Below, one piece after another: positions 27,336-38,072 of a DNA stretch of 64,000 nucleotides. The notes beneath the pieces are model-generated. The model did not search any database. It saw nothing but the letters and a program-made list of their open reading frames with translations, and was not told the DNA's origin. The position numbers were made by a program, and so were the translations under genes. How positions within the stretch are numbered: the first letter of the stretch is position 1; every line of letters starts with the position of its first letter. Origin of the DNA: Salinispora arenicola (lineage in GTDB: Bacteria; Actinomycetota; Actinomycetes; Mycobacteriales; Micromonosporaceae); contig NZ_VFOL01000001.1 of the NCBI RefSeq assembly GCF_006716065.1, positions 2,666,001 to 2,730,000 on the forward strand, read 5' to 3'.

Positions 27336-27579
27336 CGCGTCGTGCCGGCCCGTTCGTCCCCGCCTGGCCACCACGACCCGGAAGACGAGACCCCGACCGG
27401 GTGATGAACATCCGGAGGCGGGGTAACCCGGTTGGGTCGACGCCTATCGCAGCAGGTGAAAGACCGCAGTCCCGAACCGGACGTCCGCATGATGGTCCGC
27501 CGACCAAGGCGCGGACAGGCAGGGCCTAGGCTGGGCGCAGAGTGACCCACAACGCGGTGGGTCGAGGGGAGTGGCACCG

Positions 27580-30500
27580 ATGGACCGGCGTCCGGCTACC
27601 AAACCGGGACCCGACCTCCGGCAGGTTGATACCGGCCGGGACGACAACTTCGATTCGGCGACCGATTCCGACGGGTTCGGCGACGTCGAGACTGGTGTGA
27701 CCGGCCTGACCGGTTCGAGCATCGACTCGATCTATGACCTGGGCCTGCCCGCCAACGCGTTGGGCGAGGACGCCGAGGACTCGGACCTCGACGAGCCGGT
27801 ACCCAACGCGGAACGCCTGGTGGCGCAGGCAATCACCCTCGCCGGCGACGACCACGACTCGGCGGCGTTGGTCAGCCGCTACTGGCGGTTCGCGCCAGAC
27901 GAGGAGCTGATCGGATTCACCGCCGAGGAGATGCTCGATTCCGTACGCTCCCATCGGGAGTTGGCCGAGCAGCGGGTACCGGGCGAGTTGAAACTGCGTA
28001 TCCACGAGCCGGATGCCGACCAGCACCACACGGTGGTCGAGATCGTCACCGACGACATGCCGTTCCTGGTGGACTCGGTCACCGCCCTGCTCAATTCGCA
28101 CCACCTGGATGTCCACCTGCTGGTGCATCCGCTGTTGGTGATCCGGCGCGAGCCGCTCGGCCGGTTGGTCGAGGTGGCGGCGGAGATGGAGCCCGACGAT
28201 GTGGCCGCAGGCGGCCTCATCGAGAGCTGGATGCGGATCGAGATCGACCCGGTTCGGGACGCCGAGGACCGGGACAATCTGCGCCGTGAGCTGCAACGAG
28301 TGCTCACCGACGTGCGGGAGGCCGTCGAGGACTGGCCCAAGATGCGCCAGCGGGCCCTGGCGCTGGCCGACGAGCTGGCCGCCGCCCGGAACAGCGCCAG
28401 CCGGCCACCCGTGCCGGAGAAGGACATCACCGACTCGGTCGAGCTGTTGCGTTGGCTCGCCCACGACCACTTCACCTTCCTTGGCTACCGGGAGTACCGC
28501 CTGGTGGACGCGGCGGGGGAATCGGGCGGCAAGGCGTTGCGGGCCGTGCTCGGCACCGGCCTCGGGATTCTGCGCTCGGACTCCACCGAGTCCCGGAGGC
28601 TCTCGTCGATGACTCCGGAGGCGAACGAGCGGGTCACCGAGAAGCGCCTGCTGGTCATCACCAAGGCGAACTCGCGAGCCACCGTGCACCGGTCCGCGTA
28701 CCTGGACTACATCGGTTTCAAGGTGTTCGACGAGGCCGGAGAGGTGGTCGGGGAGCGTCGGTTCATTGGCCTGTTCGCCACCGCCGCGTACCGCACCAGT
28801 GTGCGGGAACTCCCGGTGGTGCGGCGCAAGGTGGCGGAGGTGGTCGATCGGTCCGGCCTGAGCCTGCGCAGCCACTCCGGCAAGGACCTGCTCCAGATCC
28901 TGGAGACCTATCCGAGGGACGAGCTGTTCCAGATCAAGACCGATGACCTGTACCATGCGGTAGTCGGTGTGCTGCGCATGGCCGGCCGTCGTCAGCTGCG
29001 GGTGTTCCTGCGCCGGGACGCGTACGGACGGTTCATCTCCTGCCTGATCTACCTACCGCGGGACCGGTTCACCACCCAGAACCGGTTGCGGATGCAGGAC
29101 ATCCTGCTGCGCGAGCTGAACGGTGTCGGGGTCGACTACACCACCCGGGTCACCGAGTCGATGTTGGCCCGAGTGCACTTCATCGTGCGCACCGACCCGA
29201 CCAAGCCGCCGGGGGACATCGACGCTGACCTGCTCGCCGAGGAACTGGCCGATGCCACCCGCCTCTGGGACGACGACTACCGGCTGGTGCTGGAGCGCAA
29301 GCTCGGCGATGAGCAGGCCAAGCACCTGTTTGCCCGGTACGCCGATGCCTTCCCGGAGGGCTACAAGGACGGGCACACGCCGTATGAGGCGATGAAGGAC
29401 CTGGCGAAGCTGGAACTGCTGGAGGAGTCCGGTCAGCTGGAGATGCACCTGTTTCGTAAGCAGTTGGCCCCGCGGGCGGCCAACCGCGGGGCAGGCGTTG
29501 ACGAGCCGATGGACGTCCGGTTCAAGGTCTACCGGTACGGCGAGCCGATGATGCTGTCGGCGGTGCTGCCGGTACTGCACTCGCTCGGTGTGAAGGCGGT
29601 TGACGAGCACCCGTACGAGGTGGAGCGCGTCGACGGGCGGATCTGGCTCTACGACTTCGGCCTGCAGTTGCCCGAGGGGCACCAGGAGCTGACCGAGGTG
29701 CGCCCGCACGTGGAGAACGCCTTCGCGGCAGCCTGGCGGGGCGAGGCCGAGGTGGACGGCTTCAACGAGCTGGTCCTGCGCGGCGGGCTCACTTGGCGGC
29801 AGGTGGTGGTGTTGCGGGCGTACGCCAAGTACCTGCGTCAGGCCGGCACGATCTTCTCCCAGGACTACATGGAGTCGACGTTCATCGCCTACCCGCGGAT
29901 CGCGGCCCTGCTGGTGCGGCTCTTCGAGGCACGGTTCGCGCCGGGATCGACGAGTCCCGAACAGCGTCAGCAGCAGAGCAGGGAACTGGTCGCCGAGTTG
30001 TGCGCCGCGCTCGACGACGTGGCCAGCCTCGACCAGGACCGGATCCTCCGGTCGTATCTGACCCTGATCCAGGCCACCCTGCGGACCAGCTTCTACCAGA
30101 AGCGTGCCGACGGGCGGCCGAAGTCGTACGTCGCCCTGAAGCTGGACCCGCAGGCGATCCCTGACCTGCCGGCGCCGCGGCCCCGGTTCGAGATCTTCGT
30201 GTACTCGCCCCGGTTCGAGGGTGTGCACCTGAGATTCGGGCCGGTGGCCCGGGGAGGGTTGCGCTGGTCCGACCGGCGGGAGGACTTCCGTACCGAGGTG
30301 CTCGGCCTGGTAAAGGCGCAGATGGTCAAGAACGCGGTGATCGTCCCGGTTGGTGCCAAGGGTGGCTTCGTGCTCAAGCAGAAGCCGGGCGACCGGGACG
30401 AGGCGGTGGTCTGCTACAAGGAGTTCATTTCCGCGTTGCTGGACGTCACCGACAACATCGTCAGCGGCGAGATCGTGCCGCCGCCGGACGTGGTCCGCCA

Positions 30501-32637
30501 CGACGGGGACGACCCGTACATGGTCGTCGCGGCGGACAAGGGCACCGCCACCTTCTCCGACATCGCCAACGAGATTTCCACCGCCCACAACTTCTGGCTG
30601 GGCGACGCGTTTGCCTCCGGCGGATCGGCAGGTTACGACCACAAGAAGATGGGCATCACCGCCCGCGGCGCCTGGGAATCGGTGAAACGGCACTTCCGCG
30701 AGCTGGGGCACGACACGCAGACCCAGGAGTTCACGGTCGTCGGCGTCGGCGACATGTCCGGTGACGTTTTCGGTAACGGGATGCTGCTGTCACGGCACAT
30801 CCTGCTGGTGGCCGCATTTGACCACCGGCACATCTTCCTCGACCCGAATCCGGACGCCGCCGCTTCGTGGTCGGAGCGGAAGCGGCTGTTCGATCTGTCC
30901 CGGTCGTCGTGGGAGGACTACAACGCGGAGCTGATCTCCGCTGGCGGTGGTGTGTTCTTGCGTACCGCGAAGTCGGTGCCGATTTCACCCCAGGTGCGCG
31001 CGGCACTCGGTATCGAGGAGGGCGTGTCGCAGCTCAGCCCACAGGAGCTGATGAAGGCGATCCTCACCGCGTCGGTCGACCTGTTCTGGAACGGTGGTAT
31101 CGGCACCTACATCAAGGCGTCGAGTCAGACCAACGTCGAGGTGGGGGACAAGTCCAACGACGCGATTCGGGTCGACGGCAAGGATCTGCGCTGTCGAGTG
31201 GTCGGCGAAGGGGGCAACCTGGGCTGCACCCAGCTCGGCCGGATCGAGTACGCCGAGGCGGGAGGTCGGGTCTACACCGACTTCATCGACAACGCCGCCG
31301 GAGTGGACTGCTCGGACCACGAGGTGAATATCAAGATCCTGCTGAACACGGCGGTCGCCGACGGGGAACTGACCGTCGGTGAGCGGGACGAGCTGCTCGC
31401 CGAGATGACCGACGAGGTCGCCGAGCTGGTGCTGCGGGACAACTACGACCAGGCGCGGGCGATCAGTAACGCGCAGGCCCAAGCGCCGTCGCTGCTGCCG
31501 GTGCACCGACGGATGATCGTTGATTTGGAACGCTCCGGTGCCCTGGACCGGGCCTTGGAGGCGCTGCCGCCGGACGAGGAACTGGCCGTCCGGATGGAGT
31601 CCGGGATGACCGCGCCGGAGTTTGCGGTGCTGCTCGCGTACGTCAAGATCGTGCTCGAGAAGGAGATCCTGGCAGAAGGTCTGGCTGACGAGGAGTGGAC
31701 GACCGAACTGCTGGTCAACTACTTCCCGACGCCGATGCGGGAGCGGTTCGCCGACCGGATGTCCCGACACCGGCTGCGCCGGGACATCGTCACCACCATG
31801 TTGGTCAACGAGGCGATCAACCGGGGCGGCATCTCGTTCGTCTACCGAGTGGTCGAAGAGACCGGGGCGACCGGCGCCGACGTTCTGCGGGCGTACGTAG
31901 TGGTGCGCGAGGTGTTCGGGCTGCGCAAGGTCTGGAACGCCGTGGAGGAACTGGACAACCGGGTTGCCCCCGAGTTGCAGACCGGTGTCTACCTGGATGT
32001 CCGGCGCCTGCTGGACCGGGCGGTGCGGTGGTTGGTGACGAACCGCCGCTCGCCGATCGACGTGCCGGCGGAGATCGCACGGCTTCGTGACGGGGTGGCC
32101 CACCTCCTACCGGGGATGGAAACGCTCTTCTACGGCACCGAGCGGGAGGCCATCGCGGCGCACATCGAGGCGATGGTCGCCAACGGGCTACCGCGGGGCC
32201 TGGCGCAACAGGCGGTCCGACTGATGTACAGCTTCGGCCTGCTCGATGTGGTCGAGACAGCGGCGAGCAGTGGACGTGACGTGTCCGAGGTCGCATCGGT
32301 CTACTTCGTCCTGTCGGACCGGTTCCGGGTGGACTCGCTGCTGTCGAAGATCTCCCTGCTCCCGCGGGAAGACCGGTGGCAGACGCTGGCCCGAATGGCG
32401 CTGCGCTACGACCTGTACGCCGCACTCGCTGCGCTGACCACCGAGGTACTGGAGGCCACTCCGGTCAGCCTGCCGCCGGTGGAGCGGGTACAGCAGTGGG
32501 AGCAGTCGAACGCCACCTCGATCCACCGTGCGCAGCGGGCGATGGGCGAGTTCGACGAGTCCCGGGCCGACCTCGCCGCTCTGTCGGTGCTACTGCGCCA
32601 GATCCGGACGCTGGTCCGTACTTCGGCGGCGTCCTGA
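27580..32637 (+). CDS. gdh: NAD-specific glutamate dehydrogenase, 180-kDa type
   Basis: 1,685 residues. It deaminates glutamate to 2-oxoglutarate with NAD. This giant class was first described in Streptomyces clavuligerus. N-terminal ACT-like regulatory segments (for example VEIVTDDMPFLVDSVTALL) cover the first third. The catalytic core follows with RGGLRWSDR, VKAQMVKNAVIVPVGAKGGF (active Lys), VVAADKGTATFSDIAN, FTVVGVGDMSGDVFGNG and VGEGGNLGCTQLGRIEYA. A long helical C-terminal domain completes it. AGGGGA precedes both GTG 27571 and ATG 27580; ATG is preferred. The 244 bases upstream hold no gene. A strong hairpin downstream ends the transcript. Confidence 0.95.
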   Translation: MDRRPATKPGPDLRQVDTGRDDNFDSATDSDGFGDVETGVTGLTGSSIDSIYDLGLPANALGEDAEDSDLDEPVPNAERLVAQAITLAGDDHDSAALVSRYWRFAPDEELIGFTAEEMLDSVRSHRELAEQRVPGELKLRIHEPDADQHHTVVEIVTDDMPFLVDSVTALLNSHHLDVHLLVHPLLVIRREPLGRLVEVAAEMEPDDVAAGGLIESWMRIEIDPVRDAEDRDNLRRELQRVLTDVREAVEDWPKMRQRALALADELAAARNSASRPPVPEKDITDSVELLRWLAHDHFTFLGYREYRLVDAAGESGGKALRAVLGTGLGILRSDSTESRRLSSMTPEANERVTEKRLLVITKANSRATVHRSAYLDYIGFKVFDEAGEVVGERRFIGLFATAAYRTSVRELPVVRRKVAEVVDRSGLSLRSHSGKDLLQILETYPRDELFQIKTDDLYHAVVGVLRMAGRRQLRVFLRRDAYGRFISCLIYLPRDRFTTQNRLRMQDILLRELNGVGVDYTTRVTESMLARVHFIVRTDPTKPPGDIDADLLAEELADATRLWDDDYRLVLERKLGDEQAKHLFARYADAFPEGYKDGHTPYEAMKDLAKLELLEESGQLEMHLFRKQLAPRAANRGAGVDEPMDVRFKVYRYGEPMMLSAVLPVLHSLGVKAVDEHPYEVERVDGRIWLYDFGLQLPEGHQELTEVRPHVENAFAAAWRGEAEVDGFNELVLRGGLTWRQVVVLRAYAKYLRQAGTIFSQDYMESTFIAYPRIAALLVRLFEARFAPGSTSPEQRQQQSRELVAELCAALDDVASLDQDRILRSYLTLIQATLRTSFYQKRADGRPKSYVALKLDPQAIPDLPAPRPRFEIFVYSPRFEGVHLRFGPVARGGLRWSDRREDFRTEVLGLVKAQMVKNAVIVPVGAKGGFVLKQKPGDRDEAVVCYKEFISALLDVTDNIVSGEIVPPPDVVRHDGDDPYMVVAADKGTATFSDIANEISTAHNFWLGDAFASGGSAGYDHKKMGITARGAWESVKRHFRELGHDTQTQEFTVVGVGDMSGDVFGNGMLLSRHILLVAAFDHRHIFLDPNPDAAASWSERKRLFDLSRSSWEDYNAELISAGGGVFLRTAKSVPISPQVRAALGIEEGVSQLSPQELMKAILTASVDLFWNGGIGTYIKASSQTNVEVGDKSNDAIRVDGKDLRCRVVGEGGNLGCTQLGRIEYAEAGGRVYTDFIDNAAGVDCSDHEVNIKILLNTAVADGELTVGERDELLAEMTDEVAELVLRDNYDQARAISNAQAQAPSLLPVHRRMIVDLERSGALDRALEALPPDEELAVRMESGMTAPEFAVLLAYVKIVLEKEILAEGLADEEWTTELLVNYFPTPMRERFADRMSRHRLRRDIVTTMLVNEAINRGGISFVYRVVEETGATGADVLRAYVVVREVFGLRKVWNAVEELDNRVAPELQTGVYLDVRRLLDRAVRWLVTNRRSPIDVPAEIARLRDGVAHLLPGMETLFYGTEREAIAAHIEAMVANGLPRGLAQQAVRLMYSFGLLDVVETAASSGRDVSEVASVYFVLSDRFRVDSLLSKISLLPREDRWQTLARMALRYDLYAALAALTTEVLEATPVSLPPVERVQQWEQSNATSIHRAQRAMGEFDESRADLAALSVLLRQIRTLVRTSAAS

Positions 32638-32692: not shown

Positions 32693-33364
32693 TCATCGGG
32701 CCAGGGTGGCGAACACGACGATGTTGTCCGGGTAGCTGTTGGCAGCCTCGTCGAACGTGCCACCACAGGTCACCACTCGCAGTCCGATCTGGTCGGTGGG
32801 ACCGTAGACCAGTTCAGTGGGGAATTCGGTCTTCGGGTACGACACCACCGAGTCGACGGTGAAGTCGACCTGCCGTCCGTCATCCCGGACAACGCTGATC
32901 GCGTCGCCCGGGTCCAGTGCGCCGAGCGAGTAGAAGACCGCGGGGCCGATCATCGCGGAGTCGACGTGCCCGACGATCACCGAGTTGCCGACCTCGCCGG
33001 GGCTCGCGCCTGGCTCGTACCAGCCGGCCAGCTGCGCCTGATCGAGCGGGGGCACCTCGACTGTCCCGTCCGGATTGGTTCCGAGCTCCATGATCGATGC
33101 GTTGACATCGATCCTCGGGATGACGATCCGGCTGGGTGTGGAACGAGGCAAACCAACGGGGGCAGGCTGGGCGACGTCCGGACTGGTTGCTACCCCGACC
33201 TGAGGGTTGGCCTGAGCAGGAGGCTGCGGGGGAGGGGCCGTGGGGGCGTCCGTGAGCGATGCCCCGATCAGGCCGAAGCCCCCCAGAGCGAGTAGGACGA
33301 CGACGACGGAACCGGCGGCACGCCACGGGATTCTGTGGCGGCCGCCGGCCCGGGTCGTCGTCAC
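32693..33364 (-). CDS. Class F sortase
   Basis: 223 residues. Sortases cleave a C-terminal sorting signal and attach the protein to the cell wall. A single N-terminal membrane helix (WRAAGSVVVVLLALGGFGLIG) is followed by a Pro-rich stalk and the sortase barrel. The catalytic His lies in VIVGHVDSA, the Cys in LRVVTCGGTFD and the Arg near the C-terminal end of the barrel is less certain. GTG 33364 starts two bases after the stop of the upstream repeat protein gene, so the two are coupled and that protein is the likely substrate. Class F enzymes of actinomycetes are poorly characterised. Confidence 0.88.
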   Translation of the reverse strand: MTTTRAGGRHRIPWRAAGSVVVVLLALGGFGLIGASLTDAPTAPPPQPPAQANPQVGVATSPDVAQPAPVGLPRSTPSRIVIPRIDVNASIMELGTNPDGTVEVPPLDQAQLAGWYEPGASPGEVGNSVIVGHVDSAMIGPAVFYSLGALDPGDAISVVRDDGRQVDFTVDSVVSYPKTEFPTELVYGPTDQIGLRVVTCGGTFDEAANSYPDNIVVFATLAR

Positions 33365-33365
33365 C

Positions 33366-35822
33366 TCAGACCAGGGAACCATCGGTTCGACGACGGAGCA
33401 GTACCAGGCCGCCCAGAGCAGCTGCACCGAGCAAACCAGCCCCACCGGCGGCTAGCCCCCGGTTGGTGCCAGCGCTCATGCCGCCGTCACCACCGTCGAC
33501 CCCGCCCCGGGGCAGGACGACGAGTTCACCCTCGCCGCACGAGCCCTCGAGCTTGTAGGTGCCCGGCTTGGCGTTCCTGTCGACCGTAGCCTCACCGTAG
33601 TAGATGTAGTCCCGCTTGTGCTCCCAGCGGTCTCCACCGCGGCCTTCGGCGTCGTCGGCGCCCCGGTCGCCCTTGTGGTCGCGCTTGTAGTCGTGGTGTT
33701 CGCGGCCTTCGGCGTCGTCGGCGCCCCGGTCGCCCTTGTGGTCGCGCTTGTAGTCGTGGTGTTCGCGGCCTTCGGCGTCGTCGGCGCCCCGGTCGCCCTT
33801 GTGGTCGCGCTTGTAGTCGTGGTGTTCGCGGCCTTCGGCGTCGTCGGCGCCCCGGTCGCCCTTGTGGTCGCGCTTGTAGTCGTGGTGTTCGCGGCCTTCG
33901 GCGTCGTCGGCGCCCCGGTCGCCCTTGTGGTCGCGCTTGTAGTCGTGGTGTTCGCGGCCTTCGGCGTCGTCGGCGTCCCAGTCGCCCTTGTGGTCGCCCT
34001 TGTGGTCGCGCTTGTAGTCGTGGTGTTCGCGGCCTTCGGCGTCCCAGTCGCCCTTGTGGTCGCCCTTGTGGTCGCGCTTGTAGTCGTGGTGTTCGCGGCC
34101 TTCGGCGTCGTCGGCGCCCCGGTCGCCCTTGTGGTCGCGCTTGTAGTCGTGGTGTTCGCGGCCTTCGGCGTCGCTGGCGTCCCGGTCGCCCTTGTGGTCG
34201 CCCTTGTGGTCGCGCTTGTAGTCGTGGTGTTCGCGGCCTTCGGCGTCGCTGGCGTCCCGGTCGCCCTTGTGGTCGCCCTTGTGGTCGCGCTTGTAGTCGT
34301 GGTGTTCGCGGCCTTCGGCGTCGCTGGCGTCCCGGTCGCCCTTGTGGTCGCCCTTGTGGTCGCGCTTGTAGTCGTGGTGTTCGCGGCCTTCGGCGTCGCT
34401 GGCGTCCCGGTCGCCCTTGTGGTCGCCCTTGTGGTCGCGCTTGTAGTCGTGGTGTTCGCGGCCTTCGGCGTCGCTGGCGTCCCGGTCGCCCTTGTGGTCG
34501 CCCTTGTGGTCGCGCTTGTAGTCGTGGTGTTCGCGGCCTTCGGCGTCGCTGGCGTCCCGGTCGCCCTTGTGGTCGCCCTTGTGGTCGCGCTTGTAGTCGT
34601 GGTGTTCGCGGCCTTCGGCGTCGCTGGCGTCCCAGTCGCCCTTGTGGTCGCCCTTGTGGTCGCGCTTGTAGTCGTGGTGTTCGCGGCCTTCGGCGTCGTC
34701 GGCGTCCCAGTCGCCCTTGTGGTCGCGCTTGTAGTCCTCGCCCTTGTGGTCGCGCTTGTAGTCGTGGTGTTCGCGGCCTTCGGCGTCGCTGGCGTCCCGG
34801 TCGCCCTTGTGGTCGCCCTTGTGGTCGCGCTTGTAGTCCTCGCCCTTGTGGTCGCGCTTGTAGTCGTGGTGTTCGCGGCCTTCAGCAGCCCAACCTTCCC
34901 GTTCCGCCGGGAGGGTCTCGGATGGCGCCGGACGGACCCAGCCGTCGTGGTCGTCGCGGTCTTCGGCTTGGCCGTAGCCGCTGTGGCTTTCGTCGCCCCA
35001 GCCGCGGTCTTCGGCTTGGCCGTAGCCGCTGTGGCTTTCGTCGCCCCAGCCGCGGTCTTCGGCTTGGCCGTAGCCGCTGTGGCTTTCGTCGCCCCAGCCG
35101 CGGTCTTCGGCTTGGCCGTAGCCGCTGTGGCTTTCGTCGCCCCAGCCGCGGTCTTCGGCTTGGCCGTAGCCGCTGTGGCTTTCGTCGCCCCAGCCGCGGT
35201 CTTCGGCTTGGCCGTAGCCGCTGTGGCTTTCGTCGCCCCAGCCGCGGTCTTCGGCTTGGCCGTAGCCGCTGTGGCTTTCGTCGCCCCAGCCGCGGTCTTC
35301 GGCTTGGCCGTAGCCGCTGTGGCTTTCGTCGCCCCAGCCGCGGTCTTCGGCTTGGCCGTAGCCGCTGTGGCTTTCGTCGCCCCAGCCGCGGTCTTCGGCT
35401 TGGCTGTCGCCATAGCCGCCCTTGTGGTCGCGCTTGTAGTCGTGGTGTTCGCGGCCTTCGGCGTCGCTGCCGTCCCGGTCGCCCTTGTGGTCGCGCTTGT
35501 AGTCCTCGCCCTTGTGGTCGCGCTTGTAGTCGCGACCGCCCATGTCTCGGTAGCCCTTGCCATCCCGCCGGTCGTGAGCCGGCTTGAGATCGACCTTGCC
35601 GGTCACCTTCGACCAGACGTAGGCGTGCTCCTGCGGCTTGGGGCAGATCTCGAGCAGCTTGACCTCGTGGCCGGCCTCGACCGCGTGTGGCTTAGCAAAG
35701 ACCTTGCCTTCATCCTTACGGTGATGATCGTCTGCGACCGCAATCCCCGGCGTACACACGAGCAGGGAGGCGCCACCGAGGGCCGCACCCGCCACGACCT
35801 TCCCGAGCAGCTTCTTTGCCAT
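33366..35822 (-). CDS. Repeat-rich surface protein with a split beta domain
   Basis: 818 residues. A signal peptide (KKLLGKVVAGAALGGASLL to AVADD) is followed by half of an Ig-like domain (FAKPHAVEAGHEVKLLEICP). About 690 residues of tandem repeats come next, then the other half (YYGEATVDRNAKPGTYKLE, GSCGEGELVVLP). A Gly-rich spacer, a membrane helix (LLGAAALGGLVLL) and RRR end it. Each half-domain has one Cys, so a disulfide may span the insert. Repeats are of two kinds: nine copies of a 16-residue Gly/Trp/Tyr unit and about 18 copies of a 21-25-residue Lys/Arg/His/Asp unit. No LPxTG is seen. GTG 35834 is an alternative start with a better ribosome-binding site. The function is unknown; a cell-wall-linked stalk or matrix protein is likely. 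Confidence 0.8.
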   Translation of the reverse strand: MAKKLLGKVVAGAALGGASLLVCTPGIAVADDHHRKDEGKVFAKPHAVEAGHEVKLLEICPKPQEHAYVWSKVTGKVDLKPAHDRRDGKGYRDMGGRDYKRDHKGEDYKRDHKGDRDGSDAEGREHHDYKRDHKGGYGDSQAEDRGWGDESHSGYGQAEDRGWGDESHSGYGQAEDRGWGDESHSGYGQAEDRGWGDESHSGYGQAEDRGWGDESHSGYGQAEDRGWGDESHSGYGQAEDRGWGDESHSGYGQAEDRGWGDESHSGYGQAEDRGWGDESHSGYGQAEDRDDHDGWVRPAPSETLPAEREGWAAEGREHHDYKRDHKGEDYKRDHKGDHKGDRDASDAEGREHHDYKRDHKGEDYKRDHKGDWDADDAEGREHHDYKRDHKGDHKGDWDASDAEGREHHDYKRDHKGDHKGDRDASDAEGREHHDYKRDHKGDHKGDRDASDAEGREHHDYKRDHKGDHKGDRDASDAEGREHHDYKRDHKGDHKGDRDASDAEGREHHDYKRDHKGDHKGDRDASDAEGREHHDYKRDHKGDHKGDRDASDAEGREHHDYKRDHKGDRGADDAEGREHHDYKRDHKGDHKGDWDAEGREHHDYKRDHKGDHKGDWDADDAEGREHHDYKRDHKGDRGADDAEGREHHDYKRDHKGDRGADDAEGREHHDYKRDHKGDRGADDAEGREHHDYKRDHKGDRGADDAEGREHHDYKRDHKGDRGADDAEGRGGDRWEHKRDYIYYGEATVDRNAKPGTYKLEGSCGEGELVVLPRGGVDGGDGGMSAGTNRGLAAGGAGLLGAAALGGLVLLRRRTDGSLV
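33642..34886 (-). repeat. 63/75-bp tandem repeat array
   Basis: About 17 in-frame units encoding AEGREHHDYKRDHKG plus a variable spacer (DRGADD, DRDASD, DWDADD). Units are 63 bp, or 75 bp when the DHKG step is doubled. One more lies at about 35430-35480. DNA identity between units is very high, so copy number may be collapsed or expanded in assemblies. Confidence 0.9.
34962..35400 (-). repeat. 48-bp tandem repeat array
   Basis: Nine essentially identical 48-bp units encode AEDRGWGDESHSGYGQ. The unit length is a multiple of three, so the array stays open in several frames on both strands, giving long spurious ORFs. Confidence 0.92.
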
Positions 35823-36329
35823 AACGTGCGTCACTCCATCCCCTGTTGTATCCCCTGTTGTCATGAACTCGGCGACAACCGAGCTAGGGCAGACGTTAGT
35901 CCGTTTCGCAACCTATGAAGGAGAAAATTCGCCTTTTCCGCTTTACGGACTGTGTAGGGGTTGATGACCTTCGGTACGTAGCTATTGGTGTGGTCCCGTG
36001 TGTTACGGGCGTCTGTCGTTGCTCGGGTTGGCCCTGTCGTGGCAGTCGGGCGGGCGTCATTGCCGGCATTGTTCTGGAAGCGCTCCCATGGGAGAATCGG
36101 TGAACGCAGGGAGCCATACCGCGCAGCGGCAGGGACATCGAGGGCAACCGGTTTCGCCGGTCGATCAACCCGCCAGGGCCGAACGACGTGTGTCGTAGGC
36201 CCGCAAACCACCACCACCCGTCCGGGACGGGCCCGGGACGTCCGGTGGCGCCGGCGGCAAGCCGCATGGCATCCACCTGGTCGTTCGCCGAGGCGTCTGC
36301 GGATGGTTTCGCCCAAGGAGATCTGTGGC
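35823..36329. other. Divergent regulatory region
   Basis: About 500 bases between the repeat protein and the cellulase. It contains the CebR-like box at 36075-36088 and must hold both promoters. No credible gene is seen; the open frames on both strands lack coding character. Confidence 0.5.
36075..36088 (+). promoter_or_regulatory. CebR-like cellulose operator
   Basis: TGGAAGCGCTCCCA differs by one base from the palindrome TGGGAGCGCTCCCA, bound by the LacI-family repressors CebR/CelR that control cellulase genes in actinomycetes and are released by cellobiose. It lies about 240 bases before the GH6 start. Confidence 0.75.
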
Positions 36330-38072
36330 ATGAACGTGTGGAGAAGGCTCTCCGGCCCACGTCCGGCCCTCGCGCTGACCGGTGTGAGTGCCCTTGTCAT
36401 AGGCGGGTTGGTGACCCTGCCGGGCACCATGGCCCACGCCGCCACCCAGTGCGAGGTGTCGTACACCACGAACGACTGGCCCGGCGGGTTCACCGCCGCC
36501 ATCAGCATCAAGAACACTGGAGACGTGCTCGACGGTTGGACGCTCCGCTTCGCCTTTCCGGACAGCAGCCAGCAGGTGGTGCACGGCTGGTCGGCCCGGT
36601 ATGGCCAGTCGGGTCAGGACGTCACCGCGCAGAATGAGTCGTACAACGGTTCGGTGGCCAGCGGCGCTACCGCCGTCATCGGCTTCAACGGCTCGTGGGA
36701 CGGCAGTAACCCCAGGCCGACGTCGTTCACTCTCAACGGGGTGGCTTGCAACGGCGGCCCCACCGCACCGCCGCCCACCACCGCACCGCCGCCCACCACC
36801 CCACCACCCGGTGCCCGGGTCGACAATCCGTACCTGAACGCAGTGGGCTACGTGAACCCGGAGTGGAAGGCCAAGGCCGAGTCGGTTCCCGGCGGCGACC
36901 GGGTGTCGAACACGTCGACCGCCGTCTGGATCGACCGGATCGCAGCCATCGAGGGGACGGATGACAGCCAGTCCAACGGCCCGATGGGTGTGCGTGATCA
37001 CTTAAACGAGGCGCTGCGTCAGGGTGCCGACTACATCCAGTTCGTCATCTACAACCTGCCCGGCCGGGACTGCGCTGCGCTCGCCTCGAACGGTGAGCTC
37101 GAGCCGGACGAGTTGCCCCGCTACAAGGCCGAGTTCATCGACCCGATCGCGGCTATCCAGAGTGACGCGATGTACCAGGACCTGCGGATCATAAACATCA
37201 TCGAAATCGACTCGCTGCCGAACCTGCACGCCAACACCGGTAGCAACCCAGGTGCCACTCCGACCTGCGACCTTGTCAAGCAGAACGGCGCCTACGTCAA
37301 CGGCATCGGCTATGCGCTAGCCACGCTGGGTGCGATCAGTAACGTCTACAACTATGTGGACGCCGCACACCATGGTTGGATCGGCTGGGACAGCAACTTC
37401 AGCCCGGTCGCCTCACTCCTGAAGGAGGCCGCCACGGCATCCGGCAGTACGGTCGACAACGCGCACGGCTTCATTGTCAACACCGCCAACTACTCGGCCC
37501 TGCACGAGCCCCATTTCCAGATCACCGACATGGTCAACGGCCAGTCGATCCGCCAGTCCACGTGGGTGGACTGGAACCAGTACGTGGACGAGCTGTCCTT
37601 CGCCCAGGCGTTCCGCGACGAGTTGGTCACCAAAGGCTTCGATTCCGGAGTCGGGATGTTGATTGATACTTCCCGAAACGGCTGGGGTGGCAGCGCCCGG
37701 CCAACCGGTCCCGGTCCGATGACTGACGTCGACAGCTATGTCGACGGTGGTCGCATCGACCGACGAATCCACGCCGGTAACTGGTGCAATCAGTCTGGCG
37801 CGGGCCTGGGTGAGCGGCCCAGGGCCGCGCCAGAGCCGGGCATCGACGCCTACGTCTGGGTGAAGCCGCCGGGCGAGTCCGACGGTTCCAGCGAGGAGAT
37901 TCCGAACAACGACGGCAAGGGCTTCGACCGGATGTGCGACCCAACGTACGACGGCAATGCCCGTAACGGCTACAACCCCAGTGGAGCCCTGCCCGACGCA
38001 CCGATCTCCGGCGCCTGGTTCCCCGCCCAGTTCCAGCAGCTCATGCAGAACGCCTACCCGCCGTTGCCCTGA
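36330..38072 (+). CDS. Secreted GH6 cellobiohydrolase with CBM2
   Basis: 580 residues. A signal peptide of about 37 residues (WRRLSGPRPALALTG to AHA) is followed by a family 2 cellulose-binding module (about 38-140, CEVSYTTNDWPGGFTAAIS). A Pro/Thr linker leads to a GH6 catalytic domain (about 165-580). GH6 signature one is visible as FVIYNLPGRDCAA with the catalytic Asp. Signature two reads IIEIDSLPNL, the form found in exocellulases such as Thermobifida Cel6B rather than the EPD of endoglucanases. It would release cellobiose from non-reducing ends outside the cell. AAGGAG lies nine bases before ATG 36330. A CebR-like box upstream suggests induction by cellulose products. Confidence 0.93.
   Translation: MNVWRRLSGPRPALALTGVSALVIGGLVTLPGTMAHAATQCEVSYTTNDWPGGFTAAISIKNTGDVLDGWTLRFAFPDSSQQVVHGWSARYGQSGQDVTAQNESYNGSVASGATAVIGFNGSWDGSNPRPTSFTLNGVACNGGPTAPPPTTAPPPTTPPPGARVDNPYLNAVGYVNPEWKAKAESVPGGDRVSNTSTAVWIDRIAAIEGTDDSQSNGPMGVRDHLNEALRQGADYIQFVIYNLPGRDCAALASNGELEPDELPRYKAEFIDPIAAIQSDAMYQDLRIINIIEIDSLPNLHANTGSNPGATPTCDLVKQNGAYVNGIGYALATLGAISNVYNYVDAAHHGWIGWDSNFSPVASLLKEAATASGSTVDNAHGFIVNTANYSALHEPHFQITDMVNGQSIRQSTWVDWNQYVDELSFAQAFRDELVTKGFDSGVGMLIDTSRNGWGGSARPTGPGPMTDVDSYVDGGRIDRRIHAGNWCNQSGAGLGERPRAAPEPGIDAYVWVKPPGESDGSSEEIPNNDGKGFDRMCDPTYDGNARNGYNPSGALPDAPISGAWFPAQFQQLMQNAYPPLP

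Follow-up and report, generated by a model that had tools for sequence, protein, structure and literature searches.

A surface protein of Salinispora arenicola with an Ig-like domain split by a hypervariable charged repeat insert and encoded beside a class F sortase

Among the described systems closest to the gene reported here are those that pair a GVDTG_CTERM surface protein with a class F sortase (NF058571, NF033748). The gene lies in a stretch of 64,000 nucleotides from S. arenicola (contig NZ_VFOL01000001.1, positions 2,666,001 to 2,730,000; hereafter the window) and resembles these systems in its sorting signal and in the sortase gene that adjoins it (Table 1). It differs from them in that its product has a domain split by a hypervariable charged insert, which amounts to 655 residues in the window. 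The ultralong CDR-H3 of bovine antibodies is also a very long insertion in a loop of the immunoglobulin (Ig) fold, but it folds into a knob rich in disulfides at the F-G loop, whereas the window insert is predicted to be disordered and is placed between strands 4 and 5. Periscope Proteins, as portrayed in excerpts of two papers (PMC8201768, PMC9704523), are likewise attached by sortase, and strains differ in how many of the near-identical tandem repeats these proteins carry; each of those repeats folds on its own, however, and together they build a rod-like stalk with an N-terminal adhesin on top. The units of the window protein are 16-25 residues long, predicted to be unstructured and located in a loop of the sole folded domain, N-terminal of which there is only a short tail. 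SspA of Actinoplanes missouriensis, from the same bacterial family, is a sortase-anchored surface protein predicted to be disordered; it differs in its class E sortase anchor, in a mature part predicted to be disordered throughout and in its total length of 191 amino acids (aa), and the excerpts of its description mention no split domain (PMC13293333). In excerpts of a 2026 paper (PMC13251363), what class F sortases do physiologically is called unknown, and the proteins encoded beside srtF1 and srtF4 are named as possible, unstudied substrates. Literature searches on split domains, loop insertions, Ig-like domains and sortases, mostly covering papers open without subscription, turned up no title on this architecture, and those on sortases and surface proteins of Salinispora and Micromonospora no title on this protein.

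In the window protein, one Cys (residue 23) falls within the signal peptide; the mature pair, Cys60 and Cys762, is separated by 701 residues. The original prediction, made without database searches, had placed two repeat families, a 16-mer and a 21-25-mer, between two one-Cys halves of a single Ig-like domain about 690 residues apart. Both families were confirmed at this place, and the comparisons below supported that the halves belong to one domain and not to two unrelated ones. When the N- and C-terminal halves were joined (omitting G003, G005, G009 and G043 from the alignment) and compared by hhalign with two-Cys relatives that have no insert, they aligned end to end and in order at 97.4%, against a maximum of 0.4% in 20 column shuffles. 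In an AlphaFold2 model of an orthologue, the halves reached a predicted local distance difference test (pLDDT) score of ~94-97, with strands 1-4 before and strands 5-7 after the insert, the same strand order as in a relative without an insert; the orthologue insert itself scored 42-59. VIA-align overlaid this model on Ig-like domains in an alignment that spans the insert, and a Foldseek search against the PDB gave no match at E under 0.001. These results support a single split Ig-like domain. Because the two Cys residues of full-domain members occupy the positions at which homologous intact domains carry their own Cys pair, an internal Cys60-Cys762 bond is predicted.

The insert consists of two arrays separated by a non-repeat linker. 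Array I has a strict period of 16 residues (Tandem Repeats Finder (TRF): 48 bp x 9.5, 99% match), and in array II the core AEGREHHDYKRDHKG occurs 18 times, mostly at a spacing of 21 or 25 residues (75 bp x 16.4, 90% match). The insert is composed of D 20.8, G 15.9, H 12.2, R 11.1, E 9.6 and K 8.5% without any Cys, and has a charged fraction of 0.50 and a net charge of -0.11 per residue. Its charges are mixed more evenly than expected by chance (approximate kappa 0.071 versus a shuffle mean of 0.148; 0/200 shuffles were as low). By established polymer theory, a half-charged and evenly mixed polyampholyte is a coil in an expanded, well-hydrated state. With ~0.36 nm per residue, the contour length of the 701-residue loop is estimated at ~250 nm, half of which would be its maximum reach from the foot.

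Matches to the C-terminal half were obtained in 60/60 genomes of the same genus in a first set, and a wider draw from the family added 104 further genomes of the genus (by list count), two of them matching only weakly. The first set comprised 61 loci, of which 58 were parsed (G001, G036 and G059 were not), and 51 of these gave complete proteins after the broken or gapped ones (G007, G014, G015, G030, G037, G052 and G054) were left out; among the named loci, those with a recognised start were used (62, or 61 without X; L110, L111, L183 and L188 were unparsed). The insert was located between the two mature Cys residues in 51/51 complete proteins, and each of the 84 distinct proteins of the genus had exactly two Cys past residue 31, one on each side of the spacer. 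The inter-Cys spacers, which include some half-domain residues, were 66 to 701 residues long and 30-76% charged, were net negative in 84/84, and contained no Cys in 22,622 residues. The repeat units were unrelated between species, and within species the units were near-identical and their number varied between strains. In M. chalcea, proteins with identical N- and C-terminal 160 residues carried inserts of 284 and 275 residues in one group and of 234, 238 (two identical entries) and 245 residues in another; these lengths were recounted from the common MAKK start, as the listed protein lengths of 398-449 are partly due to differing annotated starts. Among the matches listed (120 of 166), protein lengths were 388-415 aa in M. 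aurantiaca and 396-437 aa in M. tulbaghiae. A 314-aa relative (P0106) combines Salinispora-like ends with a 152-residue insert. A central block, GGxGGGAAD...DWKGxEHGQDAE, parted two arrays in 50/87 spacers (0/87 after shuffling), including G043, as found with a motif hidden Markov model that was seeded with seven sequences from the set and then searched; it was undetected in the window spacer, where the non-repeat linker takes its position.

The same observations bear on three alternatives. The insert might be a functionless minisatellite tolerated in a permissive loop, with a composition that mirrors GC-rich codons, as is suggested by the high DNA identity of the units, their fast turnover between and within species and the GC-rich codons themselves. 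However, its invariable position between the Cys residues, the recurrence of the central block and the retention of the charged stretch in two groups that lack most of the beta domain (described below) are at odds with such an origin, and so are the spacers, all net negative and free of Cys although a single base change would turn 235/655 insert codons of the window into Cys codons; we consider this alternative unlikely. The original prediction had also proposed metal binding through His and Asp. Although both residues are abundant in the window insert, the content of His ranges from ~2 to 12% across orthologues, the repeat sequences being unrelated between species; since His is not conserved, a metal- or ligand-binding sponge is not favoured and seems very improbable. 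Contact with polysaccharide or other hyphae, proposed at the same time, likewise gained no support from repeats so unrelated. Finally, at this gene several draft assemblies are broken, frameshifted or interrupted by runs of N, and the Salinispora loci L145, L146 and L147 end inside it, which would fit an assembly artefact in the array or in its length. As the window genome is one contig of 5,632,046 bases, from which the copy numbers are taken as assembled, and single-contig genomes of other species (e.g., G043, G021, G032, G044 and G047) have inserts in this position too, with units and lengths that differ, an artefact is hardly conceivable.

Nine of the 84 proteins (G022, G032, G033, G038, G044, G048, G053, G057 and L187) are without most of both half-domains, yet retain a Cys on each side of a charged stretch and the sorting signal, and the sortase gene adjoins in 8/8 of those in the first set. 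In a second genus (g45), the four loci fetched (L197, L198, L204 and L205, from seven matches in six genomes) all encode a protein of the form Cys, charged stretch, Cys and anchor, with no sortase frame within the ~3 kb fetched. In a tree of the signal peptide and sorting signal (77 columns, the trait region being excluded), the two reduced groups were separate, and a single joint clade was rejected (p-AU, approximately unbiased test, 0.00123). Tree counts of this kind cannot separate gain from loss; because intact domains are widespread in the family, we read the reduced form as two putative losses of the beta domain. We take the reduced groups as the best evidence that selection acts on the Cys bracket and the charged stretch rather than on the beta fold. 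Their persistent Cys residues, with little fold left to pair them, could also point to bonds between neighbouring molecules, which would join the charged chains into a covalent mesh over the hypha, but the internal bond predicted for full-domain members argues against it, and we rate such a mesh as quite improbable.

The original prediction did not include the sorting signal, the class F sortase gene next to the surface gene or the inserts of orthologues at the same place. The signal scored 30.3 bits against NF058571 (cut-off 29) as an 86-aa piece and 31.1 in a genome search, and 24.8, below the cut-off, on the full protein. The sortase starts either at an ATG at 33382, overlapping the stop codon of the surface gene, or at a GTG at 33364 just behind it, and for this reason the two proteins are probably translated together. 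A sortase frame, identified by motif, was located directly behind the surface gene in 56/56 parsed loci of the genus with room for it, the window included; the other two parsed loci (G016 and G023) end within 170 bases. Some two-Cys relatives without an insert (L200, L202 and L203) also adjoin a sortase frame found by motif. In the window genome, three class F sortases exceed the cut-off, a fourth match scores 118.9 bits and a fifth is marginal, but there is a single GVDTG match. From this arrangement, the GVDTG-type surface protein is likely a dedicated substrate of the adjoining sortase.

Beyond the genus, split-domain relatives with other inserts were present in six further genera of the family among those looked at. 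Their inserts are proline-rich in L190 and in the second genes of L195 and L196, Lys/His/Phe-rich in L193, and Glu/Lys- or Ala-rich in L191, L192, L194 and the first genes of L195 and L196. In the family draw, 157/300 genomes gave a match, matches to the sorting signal alone included. Order-wide, 43/249 genomes matched, 36 of them from the same family; in the seven others the match began at query position 26 or later and thus spanned hardly more than the sorting signal. When proteins of 450-1430 aa were searched, two relatives emerged.

Taken together, a tethered loop is the likely form of the insert, and we favour, with moderate confidence, a wall-anchored, disulfide-closed and hypervariable polyampholyte loop that probably serves as a hydration or steric coat. 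The protein would be exported, one small Ig-like domain would fold from the two half-sequences, and the neighbouring class F sortase would join the GVDTG-type signal to peptidoglycan. A long, disordered and evenly mixed polyampholyte of net negative charge would have arisen by growth of the loop between strands 4 and 5. A disulfide between the Cys pair, from the end of strand 2 to just past strand 6, would close the chain at the base of the insert, so that the protein would show a tethered loop and not a free tail. The two fold-poor groups that keep the bracketing Cys lend weight to the earlier proposal of a loop fixed at both ends, the bond itself being a prediction. Selection would act on the charge make-up and closed attachment of the loop, not on its sequence. 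As the composition suggests, the hypha would be covered by a hydrated coat that acts sterically and electrostatically, with a reach altered by gain and loss of repeats.

Several findings weigh against this reading. The gene is not universal in the genus, as G321 had no match and G225 and G347 matched weakly. The hhalign score of the joined halves came mostly from the C-terminal half, the N-terminal half alone matching the insert-less family only at 35%, and the predicted template modelling score (pTM) of the orthologue model was 0.40. Some inserts in other genera are rich in proline or alanine, which means that a strong charge is not shared by all members outside the genus. In addition, A. missouriensis with all four class F sortases deleted formed sporangia normally, according to excerpts of its description (PMC13251363).

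Tentatively, the selected unit may be the closed ring itself, namely two Cys, a charged Cys-free stretch and one end held at the wall, rather than the Ig-like domain. If this is true, closed-ring proteins would make up a class of surface polymer in bacteria, in which a polyampholyte loop is topologically closed and its size tuned by repeat turnover. The natural series of 66 to 701 residues between the Cys, beside a sortase across one genus, together with the two fold-poor groups, allows one to ask whether closed, disordered and charged loops on display serve bacteria as a coat, and also how charge composition persists without conservation of sequence. The conserved presence of insert and Cys pair, with sequence and length free, suggests a means of coating bacterial cells that has been little studied and can be tested.

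Several candidate features were rejected. Cys23 was considered as a lipoprotein Cys, but its context in the signal peptide, LLVC, does not fit the lipobox motif, and most orthologues have F at this position. A hydrophobic antisense open reading frame of 766 aa (33618-35918, plus strand) was regarded as a mirror of repeat codon use. No Pfam or NCBIfam family was found for the ectodomain, and a DUF7682 match (24.7 bits, cut-off 27) was discounted as it falls on the repeat. A second match in the window genome (G000:C1:5311784, E 4.8e-4) is a 102-aa frame and was taken as spurious.

Table 1. Positions of the surface gene, its parts and its neighbours in the window
Feature	Position	Strand or orientation	Basis and remarks
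Coding sequence, 818-aa surface protein with split Ig-like domain	33366..35822	minus	Open frame, ATG 35822 to stop 33366
Signal peptide, ~aa 1-30, begins MAKKLLGKVVAGAALGGASLLV	35733..35822	minus	Block conserved in orthologues; putative cleavage site
Ig-like domain, first half, aa 39-82, strands 1-4 by orthologue	35577..35708	minus	hhalign and orthologue AlphaFold2; EGKVFAKPHAV...EICPKPQEHAYVWSKVTGKVDLKPA, contains Cys60
Cys60, end of strand 2	35643..35645	minus	Equivalent Cys in 84/84 distinct genus proteins
Charged repeat insert, aa 83-737, 655 residues, Cys-free	33612..35576	minus	Sequence, TRF
Array I, 8 exact copies of 16-mer GYGQAEDRGWGDESHS	34980..35363 (TRF array 34955-35411)	minus	
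Non-repeat linker between arrays, begins DDHDGWVRPAPSETLPAEREGW	34887..34954	minus	Sequence
Array II, 21-25-residue units, AEGREHHDYKRDHKG core	33665..34886	minus	Sequence, TRF
Ig-like domain, second half, aa 738-773, strands 5-7 by orthologue	33504..33611	minus	hhalign and orthologue AlphaFold2; DYIYYGEATVDRNAKPGTYKLEGSCGEGELVVLPRG, contains Cys762
Cys762, immediately past strand 6	33537..33539	minus	Equivalent Cys in 84/84 distinct genus proteins
Sorting signal: GVDGGDGG motif, hydrophobic stretch, RRR tail	33369..33503	minus	NF058571
Class F sortase	32693..33382	minus	NF033748, 201.6 bits (cut-off 166)
Large gene, looks like NAD-dependent glutamate dehydrogenase	27571-32637	convergent with sortase	
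CebR-like operator TGGGAGCGCTTCCA	36075-36088	between surface gene and divergent cellulase gene	One mismatch to TGGGAGCGCTCCCA
Gene for a secreted protein, looks like CBM2 plus GH6 cellulase	36330-38072	divergent from surface gene	Identity from sequence

In the sortases, GHVD and TCGG were kept in 56/56, but the 20 residues that start at TC contain no conserved Arg; this is the stretch in which the third catalytic residue (Arg) of other sortase classes is expected. A phmmer search of the window sortase against PDB sequences gave none at E 0.001. L195 and L196, from one genus, have tandem diverged split-domain copies with a sortase frame behind each, one of the two inserts being proline-rich.

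The divergent gene, the product of which we take to be a CBM2 plus GH6 cellulase, has a GH6-like tblastn match upstream of the surface gene in 57/62 loci, the matches in L161 and L187 being short. The CebR-like box is the sole site in the window at two or fewer mismatches to TGGGAGCGCTCCCA and was present upstream in 58/62 loci. Co-regulation of the surface gene with the cellulase was considered; because the loci that have room and no box (L127, L144 and L175) also have no cellulase match, the box most likely serves the cellulase. The fourth locus without a box, L135, has only 346 bases upstream, and retention of the box in L161 and L187 with their short matches speaks slightly against this assignment. 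On the other side, the large gene convergent with the sortase, presumably for an NAD-dependent glutamate dehydrogenase, was matched downstream in 60/60 loci with room. Over 3.1 kb, its identity was 90.9-91.6% to six Salinispora loci versus 86.9-88.4% to two Micromonospora loci, and the named loci closest to the C-terminal half of the surface protein were also those of Salinispora (91-93%).
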